A DNA stretch of 64,000 nucleotides from contig NZ_LN907827.1 in assembly GCF_001517405.1 (NCBI RefSeq), positions 1,804,587 to 1,868,586 of the forward strand, written 5' to 3'. Source of the DNA: Duffyella gerundensis (GTDB taxonomy: Bacteria; Pseudomonadota; Gammaproteobacteria; Enterobacterales; Enterobacteriaceae). The position numbers and the translations under genes were made by a program. The notes below the pieces were generated by a model. It was given only the letters and a program-made list of their open reading frames with translations. It did not search any database and was not told the DNA's origin. Positions 47,221-50,348 of the stretch are shown here, piece after piece (the first letter of the stretch is position 1; each line of letters starts with the position of its first letter).

Positions 47221-48232
47221 TTCGCCAACAACTACAGGGAAACCGCCGATGCAAAAGCGCAGGCTACCGCCCGGCATGCCGCAGATTGCGGCGCTGATTC
47301 TGGTGCTGCTGGTTGACAGCCTGGTGGCAAACAACTTTTTCGCCATTCATCTGCAGGATGGTCGGCTGTTCGGCAGCCCGATCGACATTCTCAACCGCGC
47401 GGCGCCGGTGGCGATTCTGGCTATCGGCATGACGCTGGTGATCGCGACTGGCGGCATCGATCTGTCGGTGGGCGCGGTGATGGCGATTGCCGGTGCCACC
47501 GCGGCCACCATGACCGTCGCGGGCTATCCGCTGCTGGCGATTGTGCTGACCACGCTGGCCGCGGGCGTGCTCTGCGGGCTGTGGAACGGCGTGCTGGTGG
47601 CGCTGCTGAAAATTCAGCCGTTTGTCGCCACGCTGATTTTGATGGTGGCGGGGCGCGGCATTGCGCAGCTGATTACCCAGGGACAAATTGTGACCTTCGA
47701 CAGCGATGCGCTGGGCTTTATCGGCAGCGGATCGCTGGCGCTGATTCCGGTGCCGGTGTGGATCACGCTGCTGCTGGCGCTGGTGGTGTGGGTGCTGACG
47801 CGAAAAACCGCGCTGGGGCTGTTTATTGAAGCGGTCGGTATCAACCTGCGTGCCGCGCGCAACGCTGGCGTTAACGGCTGGCTGGTGGTGATGTCGACCT
47901 ACGTGATCAGCGGCCTGTGCGCCGCGGTGGCGGGTTTGATCGTCGCAGCGGATATACGCGGAGCCGATGCCAATAACGCCGGATTGTGGCTGGAGCTGGA
48001 TGCGATCCTGGCGGTGGTCATTGGCGGTGCGTCGCTGCTCGGCGGGCGCTTTAGCCTGGCGCTTTCGCTGATCGGCGCGCTGATTATTCAGGCAATGAAC
48101 ACCGGGATTCTGCTGTCGGGTTTTCCGCCAGAGCTGAATCAGGTGGTTAAAGCGGTGGTGGTGATGTGTGTGCTGCTGCTGCAATCCCCGCGCGTGATTG
48201 CGCTGTTTAAACGAGGAGATCGTCATGGTTAA
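47213..48232 (+). CDS. ytfT: YtfT-type sugar ABC transporter permease
   Basis: 339 residues from ATG 47213, overlapping the ytfR stop by 8 bp; an upstream Met at 47195 is less likely. CUT2 permease (BPD_transp_2) with about ten membrane segments; LAIGMTLVIATGGIDLSVGAV is the family hallmark stretch. Pairs with YjfF. Overlaps yjfF by 8 bp. Confidence 0.94.
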   Translation: MLDSPTTTGKPPMQKRRLPPGMPQIAALILVLLVDSLVANNFFAIHLQDGRLFGSPIDILNRAAPVAILAIGMTLVIATGGIDLSVGAVMAIAGATAATMTVAGYPLLAIVLTTLAAGVLCGLWNGVLVALLKIQPFVATLILMVAGRGIAQLITQGQIVTFDSDALGFIGSGSLALIPVPVWITLLLALVVWVLTRKTALGLFIEAVGINLRAARNAGVNGWLVVMSTYVISGLCAAVAGLIVAADIRGADANNAGLWLELDAILAVVIGGASLLGGRFSLALSLIGALIIQAMNTGILLSGFPPELNQVVKAVVVMCVLLLQSPRVIALFKRGDRHG

Positions 48233-49208
48233 ACGTCATCTGCCGCTGATGATCACCTTACTGGTGTTCGTGGCGGGCTACCTGTTTTGTCTGAGCCAGT
48301 TTCCGGGCTTCGCTTCTACCCGGGTGATCTGCAACATTCTCACCGACAACGCCTTTTTAGGCATTATCGCCGTGGGTATGACCTTTGTGATCCTCTCGGG
48401 CGGTATCGATCTGTCGGTGGGCGCGGTGATCGCCTTTACCGGCGTCTTTCTTGCCCGGGTTATCGGCGATTTTCATCTGTCGCCGTGGCTCGCCTTTACG
48501 ATCATCCTGCTGGGCGGTGCGCTGTTTGGCGCCATGATGGGCTGGCTGATCGATGCGCTGAAAATCCCGGCGTTTATCATCACCCTGGCGGGCATGTTTT
48601 TTCTGCGCGGCTGCAGCTACCTGATCTCTGAAAGCTCGATTCCAATCGACCATCCGCTCTACAGCACGCTCTCCAGCATGGCGTGGAAAATACCCGGCGG
48701 CGGACGGCTCAGCCTGCTGGCGCTTATCATGCTGGCGGTGGTGGCGGTGGGCATTCTGGTGGCACACCGTACCCGCTTCGGCAACCAGGTTTATGCCGTC
48801 GGCGGCAGTAACGTCTCCGCGCAGCTCATGGGCATCTCCACCCGCGCCACCACGGTGCGTATTTATATGCTGTCCACCACGCTGGCCACGCTGGCGGGCA
48901 TTGTGTTCTCGATCTATACCTCGGCAGGTTATGCGCTGGCCGGATTAGGCGTCGAGCTGGACGCGATCGCCTCGGTGGTGATCGGCGGCACGCTGCTCTC
49001 CGGCGGTGTTGGCACCGTGCTCGGCACGCTGTTCGGCGTGTTAATTCAGGGCTTGATTCAGACCTGGATTAACTTCGACGGCACGCTCAGCTCGTGGTGG
49101 ACCAAAATCGCTATCGGCGTGCTGCTGTTTGTGTTTATCGCGCTGCAGCGGTTACTTACGGTGATGTGGGATCGGCAGCAGAATGCACCCGTCAGGAGGG
49201 TGTTGTAG
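48225..49208 (+). CDS. yjfF: YjfF-type sugar ABC transporter permease
   Basis: 327 residues from MVKRHLPLMITLLV, with GAGGAG upstream. Second CUT2 permease with the GMTFVILSGGIDLSVGAV hallmark; very close to E. coli YjfF. Last gene of the ytf operon; no separate terminator is visible, and the structured repeat element begins only 26 bp after the stop codon. Confidence 0.94.
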   Translation: MVKRHLPLMITLLVFVAGYLFCLSQFPGFASTRVICNILTDNAFLGIIAVGMTFVILSGGIDLSVGAVIAFTGVFLARVIGDFHLSPWLAFTIILLGGALFGAMMGWLIDALKIPAFIITLAGMFFLRGCSYLISESSIPIDHPLYSTLSSMAWKIPGGGRLSLLALIMLAVVAVGILVAHRTRFGNQVYAVGGSNVSAQLMGISTRATTVRIYMLSTTLATLAGIVFSIYTSAGYALAGLGVELDAIASVVIGGTLLSGGVGTVLGTLFGVLIQGLIQTWINFDGTLSSWWTKIAIGVLLFVFIALQRLLTVMWDRQQNAPVRRVL

Positions 49209-49234: not shown

Positions 49235-49458
49235 CTGCCTGAAGGCAGCCCGAGCAGGGCCGGCAGTCGCCCCGGCCCTGCACCCGCGCTATCCGGCAAA
49301 CACAACCGCCCGCTGCGCGGGTCCCTTCGTCGTTTCACATTTCTTCACGGACCGCTCGCGATTCGCTCCCCGCTCAACGCTCCCTTGTCCCGCCATCCAT
49401 AGCGGGACATCCTAAAATGTTCACCTCCTCAGCAGTTGTGATGCCTCCTCAAGGTCAA
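49235..49458 (-). repeat. Structured repeat element, left copy (inverted)
   Basis: 224 bp. Reading the minus strand it starts with a 21-bp word identical to the right copy, then has hairpin 4 (GTCCCGC/GCGGGAC, 49387-49408), a GCGTTGAGC-GGGAGCGAATCGCG block, hairpin 3 (CCCGC/GCGGG, 49309-49321), a 23-bp identical word (49289-49311), hairpin 2 (GCAGGGCCGG/CCGGCCCTGC, 49254-49281) and hairpin 1 (CTGCCT/AGGCAG, 49235-49248). It also carries a perfect ribosome-site-like AGGAGGTGA, followed by only a 21-codon frame. Confidence 0.85.
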
Positions 49459-49501
49459 CCCCCAAGTCAAAACCCAAAAGACTAAGACAAGAATTTAAAT
49501 T

Positions 49502-49729
49502 AAAACCCAAAACCCAAAACCCAAAAACTGAAAACTGAAAACTGAAAACTGAAAACTGAAAACTGAAAACTGAAAACTGATAACTGATAATTGATAACTG
49601 ATAACTGATAACTAAAAACTAAAAACTAAAAACTAAAAACTAAAAACTAAAAACTAAAAACTAAAAACTAAAAACTGAAAACTGAAAACTGATAACTGAT
49701 AACTGAAAACTGAAAACTGAAAACTGAAA
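49502..49729. repeat. Heptanucleotide tandem array
   Basis: About 32 units of 7 bp: three AAAACCC units, then blocks of AAAACTG, ATAACTG and AAAACTA, and again AAAACTG. Variants are grouped in blocks, as expected from slippage or unequal exchange spreading point changes. The unit length of 7 rules out a simple protein repeat. Confidence 0.9.
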
Positions 49730-49737
49730 ATAAGATT

Positions 49738-49935
49738 AAGGACAAATCCAAGGCCTGCTACAAAACCTAAAGCCTGGTTTTAAAATTTGAATCAGAAGTG
49801 CCGAATTCCATGGCGAATGTAAAGCCCGATAAATCATCCTGTGCATTAAAACGGGTTCTTTATCTGGAACGCAGGCTCTTAATCTTACACATGCATGTCA
49901 TGGGATTAATCATCTGATTTTAATGATTTATTATT
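49738..49935. other. AT-rich core of the composite repeat locus
   Basis: About 200 bp of non-repetitive AT-rich DNA between the 7-bp and 10-bp arrays. No open frame of note, no promoter I would defend, and no transposase signature; contains the short palindrome ACATGCATGT (49889-49898). Confidence 0.5.
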
Positions 49936-49938
49936 GCT

Positions 49939-50026
49939 TTTTGACTGCTTTTGACTGCTTTTGACTGCTTTTGACTGCTTTTGGCTGGTTTTTGACTGGC
50001 TTTTGATTTGGACTTTGACCTGGGTT
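49939..50026. repeat. 10-bp tandem array
   Basis: Four exact TTTTGACTGC units (49939-49978), then degenerate TTTTGGCTGG, TTTTTGACTGGC and TTTGACCTGGG units leading straight into the TTGACC start of the right structured element. Confidence 0.9.
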
Positions 50027-50250
50027 TTGACCTTGAGGAGGCATCACCACCGCCGAGGGAAAAGCGTTTTCCAGGATGAGCCGCAAGGATGCGGCGAAAA
50101 GGCGCGTTGAGCTGGGAGCGAATCGCGGCTGGTCCGTCAGGAAAAGGGTTTTACTGAGGGAACCCGCCTGTGGCGGGCGGTTGTGTTTGCCGGATAGCCG
50201 GGGTGCAGGGGCGGGGCGACTGCCGCCCTGCTCGGCCGCCTGAAAGGCGG
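50027..50250 (+). repeat. Structured repeat element, right copy
   Basis: 224 bp, the same length as the left copy and in opposite orientation. Hairpins occur in the same order with different but complementary arms: GCCGC/GCGGC (50080-50095), CCCGCC/GGCGGG (50163-50177), GCAGGG-CGG/CCG-CCCTGC (50205-50231, one bulged G) and CCGCCT/AGGCGG (50236-50250). An extra GGAAAA/TTTTCC hairpin lies at 50058-50072. A 55-codon frame (50076-50243) runs through it but is not conserved in the left copy. Confidence 0.85.
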
Positions 50251-50258
50251 AAGAAATC

Positions 50259-50348
50259 GCTTTTGACCTAAGTGCCTTTGACCTAAGTGCCTTTGACCTA
50301 AGCGCCTTTGACCTAAGCGCCTTTGACCTAAACGCCTTTGACGTTAAA
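50259..50348. repeat. 15-bp tandem array
   Basis: Six units of consensus GCCTTTGACCTAAGY, the first with GCTTTT and the last degenerate (GCCTTTGACGTTAAA). It follows the right structured element directly. Confidence 0.9.

Follow-up and report, generated by a model that had tools for sequence, protein, structure and literature searches.

The window, a stretch of 64,000 nucleotides of the Duffyella gerundensis genome, carries an inverted pair of 224-bp arms, A and B, between yjfF and araA (Table 1). The explanation that we favour, with about an even chance of being right, is that the two arms together form one instance of a dispersed cassette of two outward-facing RNA modules of the TwoAYGGAY type (Rfam RF01731), which likely serves as a two-way 3′-end element and is predicted to bind CsrA.

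Copies of the paired element in the D. gerundensis genome

A sequence-only reading of the window had placed two 224-bp copies at these positions on opposite strands, and both were confirmed. Two of the identical words that it had noticed between the copies, of 21 bp (at the inner end) and 14 bp, were recovered, and the word given as 23 bp measures 26 bp. The stems differ between the arms as it had described (GTCCCGC/GCGGGAC against GCCGC/GCGGC, a CCCGC-type stem, the GCAGGG stem, and CTGCCT/AGGCAG against CCGCCT/AGGCGG). The dispersed copies that it had predicted for the host genome were also found: BLAST with each arm, with re-mapping, located 57 arms (24 A and 33 B) at 29 chromosomal loci. 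The pair is not the palindrome of one element: all of the 24 pairs join two different arm types.

In each of these 24 inverted pairs a single A arm is accompanied by one B arm or by two, and the A and B arms always diverge. The other five loci have a single arm, which is always B. Searched individually, arm B gave at least 44 matches in this genome with E down to 1e-113, and arm A at least 59, tail-only and split matches included. The A and B arms are about 74-82% identical by BLAST. A thirtieth locus (L080, C1:2569425-2570681) is a diverged outward pair, 1.3 kb long, with variants of its own; it is excluded from the A/B counts. Also outside these counts is one further weak match, at C1:2404333, of the covariance model R1 introduced below (33.4 bits).

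Table 1. Positions of the two arms, their parts, the spacer and the flanking genes in the window.
Feature	Position	Strand	Description
Left neighbour, galactofuranose ABC transporter permease YjfF	48198-49208	plus	stops 26 bp before the element
Arm A	49235-49458	minus	reads leftward; inner end 49458, outer end 49235; TwoAYGGAY-type RNA module
Arm A outer hairpin, variant v1 (GCAGGGCCGG stem)	49254-49281	minus	origin side
Arm A CCCGC/GCGGG hairpin, then T-rich stretch	49309-49321	minus	weak terminator-like, sense direction
Arm A match to Rfam RF01731	49332-49414		33.2 bits, under the 43-bit cut-off
Arm A core	49343-49415	minus	covariance model R1, 53.5 bits; C1:1853929-1854001
Arm A second GGA-loop hairpin region	49357-49383	minus	from sequence and alignments of sister copies
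Arm A hairpin 1	49387-49408	minus	GTCCCGC / GCGGGAC, GGA in loop; from sequence and fold
Spacer between arms	49459-50026		568 bp, AT-rich, GC 0.33
Heptamer minisatellite in spacer	49524-49730		about 30 copies of AAAACTG
10-bp tandem repeat TTTTGACTGC in spacer	49939-50006		6.6 copies
Arm B	50027-50250	plus	reads rightward; homologous TwoAYGGAY-type module
Arm B core	50071-50141	plus	covariance model R1, 67.6 bits; C1:1854657-1854727
Arm B hairpin 1	50080-50095	plus	GCCGC / GCGGC, GGA in loop; from sequence
Arm B second GGA-loop hairpin region	50101-50129	plus	from sequence
Arm B counterpart of CCCGC/GCGGG hairpin	50163-50177	plus	weak terminator-like, sense direction
Arm B outer hairpin, variant v2 (GCAGGGGCGG stem)	50205-50231	plus	terminus side
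Tail outside arm B, 15-bp tandem repeat with TTGACC	50258-50342		5.7 copies
Right neighbour, L-arabinose isomerase AraA	50415-51917	minus	convergent with yjfF

Several arms and spacers are elaborated. In four of the 57 arms (the A arms of L022, L023 and L048 and the B arm of L042), the apical portion of hairpin 2 holds an additional structured domain of some 75 bp; a similar domain was seen by eye in another genome (L050), and two Pectobacterium matches of R1 (L109 and L173), of 95 bases, belong to the same length class. A 27-bp outer hairpin tail is tandemly repeated outside the B arm with a period of about 47 bp (L022 651-865, L025 710-783, L045 1200-1273). In most of the 24 pairs, heptamer minisatellites fill much of the spacer, with a unit that is different at each locus and with 26-31 copies at L070, L079 and L086. 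The array in the window contains TAACTGA-like units, and a heptamer of this kind has been reported in Beggiatoaceae (PMC4679880).

No codon-scored ORF lies inside any of the 30 loci examined, and a coding role of the element was rejected on this ground. Promoter-like sites in the window are at chance level (1 against 1.0 in shuffles), and a promoter in the spacer was likewise rejected. Terminator-like sites number 6 against 2.3 in shuffles, and the U-tracts behind the arm hairpins are weak.

Family identity, fold and distribution

The sequence-only reading had assigned the repeat to no named family; one exists. RF01731 matches the D. gerundensis genome at 23 places, 20 of them above its curated cut-off of 43 bits; the places above it comprise A arms together with one arm of the diverged L080. 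Arm A of the window stays under the cut-off (Table 1), and two sister A arms 95% identical to it score 47.6 and 51.5 bits. The B arms fall below the cut-off (best listed 28 bits, E 2.6-2.7), and that of the window is unlisted at E up to 1. Because of their roughly 80% identity to A and the same two hairpins, we file the B arms as homologues of TwoAYGGAY, not as members by the cut-off. R1, built without either window arm, recognises both (Table 1). RF01731 had no match in 14 control genomes. It shares the Rfam clan CL00106 with RsmY. MicroRNA families in the loose-threshold Rfam listing scored far below their own cut-offs and were taken as chance. TwoAYGGAY appears among published candidate RNAs, with the human gut, gammaproteobacteria and Clostridiales given as its sources (PMC2864571). 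The parts of the open-licence literature surveyed contain no description of paired or dispersed TwoAYGGAY elements.

The arms fold, as had been proposed, and do so on a sense strand: arm A reaches -102.5 kcal/mol in the sense direction against -80 for its complement. The folding z-scores of the sense strands are -3.58 for arm A (none of 200 shuffles as good) and -2.08 for arm B (4 of 200). The compensating changes first noticed between the two copies recur across relatives in an alignment of 29 cores, none of which comes from the window: 19 are from 19 same-family genomes, seven from the D. gerundensis genome, and the other three, two on Pantoea plasmids and one in a genome, belong to further relatives. 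The predicted core structure has 14 pairs in two helices, with two GGA-loop hairpins, and 13 of the 14 pairs show two-sided compensatory change. Pairing holds in 90.9% of cells (62.2% in shuffles), and covariation scores 0.646, where shuffles give 0.149 and slid controls at most 0.115. No column is invariant except those of the GGA in the first loop and of the G two bases on. For 53 full arms of the D. gerundensis genome, RNAalifold gives a structure of 53 pairs, 99.3% paired, with 149 cells of two-sided change against 54.6 in shuffles and a covariation score of 0.203 against 0.116. These 53 arms do not exceed shuffles in how many pairs change (10 against 9.2) or in how many pair types occur (29 against 29.9), largely because the signal is mostly a single A/B split. 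The stronger covariation comes from other lineages.

BLAST with arm B, the search that the earlier reading had recommended, gave weak matches in only 3 of 60 relatives, and a covariance model was needed to find the element. We applied R1, the model made from the 29 cores, to 151 loci in sets of 80 and 71, leaving out L221 of the D. gerundensis genome. It gave 188 matches at E up to 1; of these, 145 scored 23.4 bits or more and were retained, and they occupy 100 loci. Matches are found in Pseudomonas, Stutzerimonas, Azotobacter, Pantoea, Pectobacterium, Serratia, Enterobacter and Acerihabitans, and weak-scoring ones in Stenotrophomonas and Thalassocella. A pattern scan of named genomes gave at least 120 stretches; pattern matches in Methylobacterium, Arthrobacter, Hyphomicrobiales and Acidimicrobiia fell below 23.4 bits with R1. 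RF01731 matches at least 25 of 149 same-family genomes, that of D. gerundensis included, at least 12 of them above the cut-off, and at least 17 of the 25 have five or more matches. A class-wide search at E 1e-4 matched at least 18 of 274 genomes, again including that of D. gerundensis, in 16 families. From R1 and the class-wide search, the element extends well beyond the family of the window's own organism.

Among plasmids, 4 of 72,556 records match arm B, all of them from Pantoea. Arm B had no match in 50,697 phage records and a 19-base arm word occurred in no viral contig, and a phage origin was rejected for these reasons. One IMG/VR viral-contig stretch contains an outward pair (L216 13022-14053), and one genome (G109, L236 1308-2676) has three outward pairs in tandem with a period of about 550 bp.

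Outward pairing, gene context and probable mobility

Outward pairing recurs in other lineages. Of the neighbouring cores within 1 kb, 37 of 43 diverge among matches of at least 23.4 bits; three converge (in two cases the cores belong to different units of a single tandem array), and two and one are in tandem. Among all 188 matches, 45 of 51 neighbour pairs diverge; the R1 alignment takes 19 rows from the loci counted for orientation. Three genomes searched whole (G026, G169 and G149), each of which gave R1 one row, have five pairs, and all diverge. The class-wide search, whose matching genomes except that of D. gerundensis gave no row to R1, has 16 of 17 neighbour pairs diverging among the matches listed; its 33 rows without an orientation call are contigs with one match each. 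Single matches make up 61 of the 100 loci in other genomes. The partner side is cut off in 10 of these, and in the remainder the partner is absent or too diverged. Outward pairing is common, not universal.

The two arms of a pair are also of different types outside D. gerundensis. For 72 of 74 paired arms in other lineages, the closest arm lies elsewhere and is not the partner, by an identity measure that ignores gaps. In Pantoea, the same two arm types recur in both orders (L103, L107, L191 and L198). Clustering of arms at 80% and 85% identity merged nearly everything because the same measure inflates identity, and at 90% one pair among 28 was of the same type.

Half of the loci (15 of 30) lie at convergent junctions according to a codon-based gene caller, with 14 at tandem and one at a divergent junction. 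Among other junctions of the same sequence 21 of 136 are convergent (p 1.2e-4). For annotated Pantoea plasmids, the PLSDB gene table, which is incomplete, places 8 of the 13 distinct sites at convergent junctions and none at a divergent one. These 13 sites derive from 18 copies: three SO10 copies were left out, two copies form one pair, a fourth SO10 copy is the SS70 site, and one site was called from the SS70 annotation. At about 6 of the 24 pair loci in D. gerundensis, one terminator-like sequence recurs in inverted orientation on the two outer flanks, and read-through may be rare where such hairpins bracket the cassette.

In the D. gerundensis genome the cassette is oriented relative to replication. 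Its outer hairpin has two variants, v1 and v2, and the two arms carry opposite variants in all 24 pairs. The v1 arm is on the origin side in 22 of them (p 3.6e-5, with v1 and v2 defined after the alignments were seen), and the A arm is on the terminus side in 18 of 24, a weaker bias (p 0.023). The dif site is at 1,904,057, and the origin is placed near the contig ends by two DnaA boxes and a switch in GC skew. An origin-side bias of a similar kind is known for single-strand transposons. A is linked with v2 in 18 pairs and with v1 in six, that of the window included. Such swapped linkage of inner and outer parts is the outcome that would be expected of a crossover between inverted arms, once or several times; the six pairs may also be one subfamily rather than six inversions.

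In 22 of the 24 pairs the spacer shares a match of at least 40 bp with another locus, some of these being perhaps simple repeats. These matches suggest that units spread whole, and A, spacer and B likely move as one cassette. At matching sites of Pantoea plasmids, for which this difference is shown, the element is present in some strains and absent in others (SOD02 against SS70, and SS70 against X85 and SOD02). In SOD02 a LysR gene and ghrA are separated by a pair; in SS70 the interval between the same two genes measures 32 bp, with one REP-like palindrome and without the element. The proP-treZ site has one arm in SS70 and SO10, the other arm type and a remnant in X85 (by eye), and only REP-like palindromes in SOD02. 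The palindromes (GGTCGCCAT..ATGGCGACC) that stand on Pantoea plasmids where other strains hold the element are at L239 594-700 and L240 2055-2080, and those of L239 also have a preceding GTAG. The Y1 transposase (PF01797) had no match in the D. gerundensis genome, with a positive E. coli control, and RAYT-driven spread was rejected on this basis.

Predicted CsrA binding, alternative explanations and known systems

The loop motif of the arms resembles the CsrA binding consensus. GGA is more frequent than TCC in all of 53 arms of the D. gerundensis genome and in 117 of 119 arms of other lineages (at least 40 bits). The mean number of GGA per arm is 6.81 against 5.95 in dinucleotide shuffles in the former and 7.66 against 6.31 in the latter, a modest excess in both. 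The arms thus share a feature of sponge RNAs, namely several GGA motifs, some of them in hairpin loops. A single CsrA gene was found in each of six genomes tested. TwoAYGGAY was predicted to bind CsrA by the RMfam authors (PMC4333381). For RsmQ, a preference for AnGGA at hairpin tops was shown (PMC9928087). Each copy of the cassette is accordingly predicted to bind CsrA, and arm RNA would likely titrate CsrA when transcribed.

With an outward pair at a convergent junction, read-through from each gene would include a single sense arm. RNA that enters from the left gene would contain arm A in antisense, followed by the spacer and then by arm B in sense; RNA from the right gene would run through them in the reverse order, with arm A in sense. 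Each direction of read-through would thus bear one working sense module near the 3′ end of the RNA. Summed over 57 arms, such RNA would compete for CsrA as a distributed sponge; alternatively, it would allow CsrA to act on the flanking messages. We count this RNA reading down because the promoter scan is at chance level, the GGA excess is modest and many copies elsewhere are single, and because replication polarity and mobility would also be expected of a selfish element. The larger proposal of genome-wide CsrA control seems to us quite unlikely. In it, gammaproteobacterial chromosomes would carry tens of mobile, replication-polarised cassettes, each with two different CsrA-binding RNAs facing outward, that convert read-through where convergent genes end into titration of CsrA, and the sum of termination leakage would be reflected in free CsrA.

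A selfish, non-autonomous mobile element would have arms that act as subterminal DNA ends for a transposase, with the fold as the recognition structure, perhaps recognised single-stranded at the replication fork. Spacers shared between loci, the site differences between Pantoea plasmids (including the 32-bp empty junction and the site with REP-like palindromes only) and the origin-proximal position of v1 are all what such an element would produce. We nevertheless judge it rather unlikely as the whole explanation, given that the genome has no match to the Y1 transposase where E. coli scored, that no target duplication was established at the one empty site compared, that GGA loops are kept on one strand across highly diverged stems, and that the A and B types remain distinct. 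The RNA reading and the purely selfish one are compatible.

Strong hairpins could also stop transcription or protect 3′ ends, so that the cassette would be a bidirectional terminator or insulator between convergent genes, like large BIMEs, with no role for CsrA. This is improbable: it agrees with the convergent bias, with the excess of terminator-like sites in the window and with the terminator-like inverted repeats flanking some loci, but leaves unexplained the GGA loops, the one-strand asymmetry and the two arm types, and it sits poorly with the weak U-tracts and with the 14 loci between tandem genes. The single very long hairpin considered by the earlier reading, in which arm A as antisense would pair with arm B in a spanning transcript and give double-stranded RNA for processing or stability, can form in principle. 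The likeness of A and B permits it, and some predicted whole-unit folds elsewhere do pair both arms. It is very improbable as the function of the pair, however, because covariation supports separate stems in each arm and the 72 arms closer to other loci than to their partners indicate that selection does not keep the arms complementary.

Several known systems resemble the cassette that we favour in part. Inverted pairs of hairpin units with paired subtypes are known as BIMEs and REPINs, and their REP units are about 20-40 bp long with a 5′ GTAG. The present element is likewise an extragenic inverted pair of hairpins, and its Pantoea copies sit among REP-like palindromes. It differs in its arms of 224 bp, which are not 20-40 bp REP units, in the occurrence of REP-like palindromes only beside the Pantoea copies and, from REPINs, in the lack of a Y1 (RAYT) transposase match in this genome. 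It is like MITEs in its presence or absence at matching sites in Pantoea relatives; its arms are inverted, and the one empty site compared established no target duplication. The R178, R200 and R26 families of Pseudomonas fluorescens are intergenic repeats of 101-352 bp, and the repeat-family set of that species shows a tail-repeat-tail bias (PMC2718517). YPAL/RU-2 is a mobile repeat of 167-168 bp in 60 intergenic regions of one Yersinia chromosome, and its printed example has two ANGGA-loop hairpins on one strand, whereas it is described as one unit with TA target duplications (PMC2759123). Kinship by sequence was rejected, the similarity of YPAL/RU-2 to the core being insignificant (4 bits). 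The printed example suggests that YPAL/RU-2 may itself be an RNA of the CsrA type and that further small mobile repeats of enterobacteria may carry the same GGA-loop motif.

Among RNAs, the modules here, with about seven GGA motifs each and some of them in hairpin loops, resemble CsrB, RsmY, RsmZ and RsmW. RsmW has seven GGA motifs, three of them on outer loops, derives from a 3′ UTR and was shown to bind RsmA (PMC4950607). Several copies of RsmX exist in some species (PMC4950607). The sections of this literature surveyed give CsrB, RsmY, RsmZ and RsmW as one to a few genes per genome, whereas the present elements are tens of paired copies and predicted binders. With TwoAYGGAY itself, the arms have in common the two GGA-loop hairpins and a closing stem; its cut-off is passed by A arms of this genome and, in several pairs elsewhere, by one of the two arms. 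The accounts of TwoAYGGAY within the literature surveyed mention neither dispersal, outward pairing, two arm types nor replication polarity, and a cassette that combines these is undescribed there.

CsrA control is generally ascribed to one or a few sponge RNAs. Should tens of dispersed cassettes bind CsrA too, many loci, together with read-through, would set its titration, and the annotation of convergent gene ends would have to be revised in many genomes. The rule that the cassette follows, with two different arms facing outward and one end facing the origin, offers a clean way to trace what moves or maintains the repeats. TwoAYGGAY, a poorly understood family, also gains a genomic context and a testable role.
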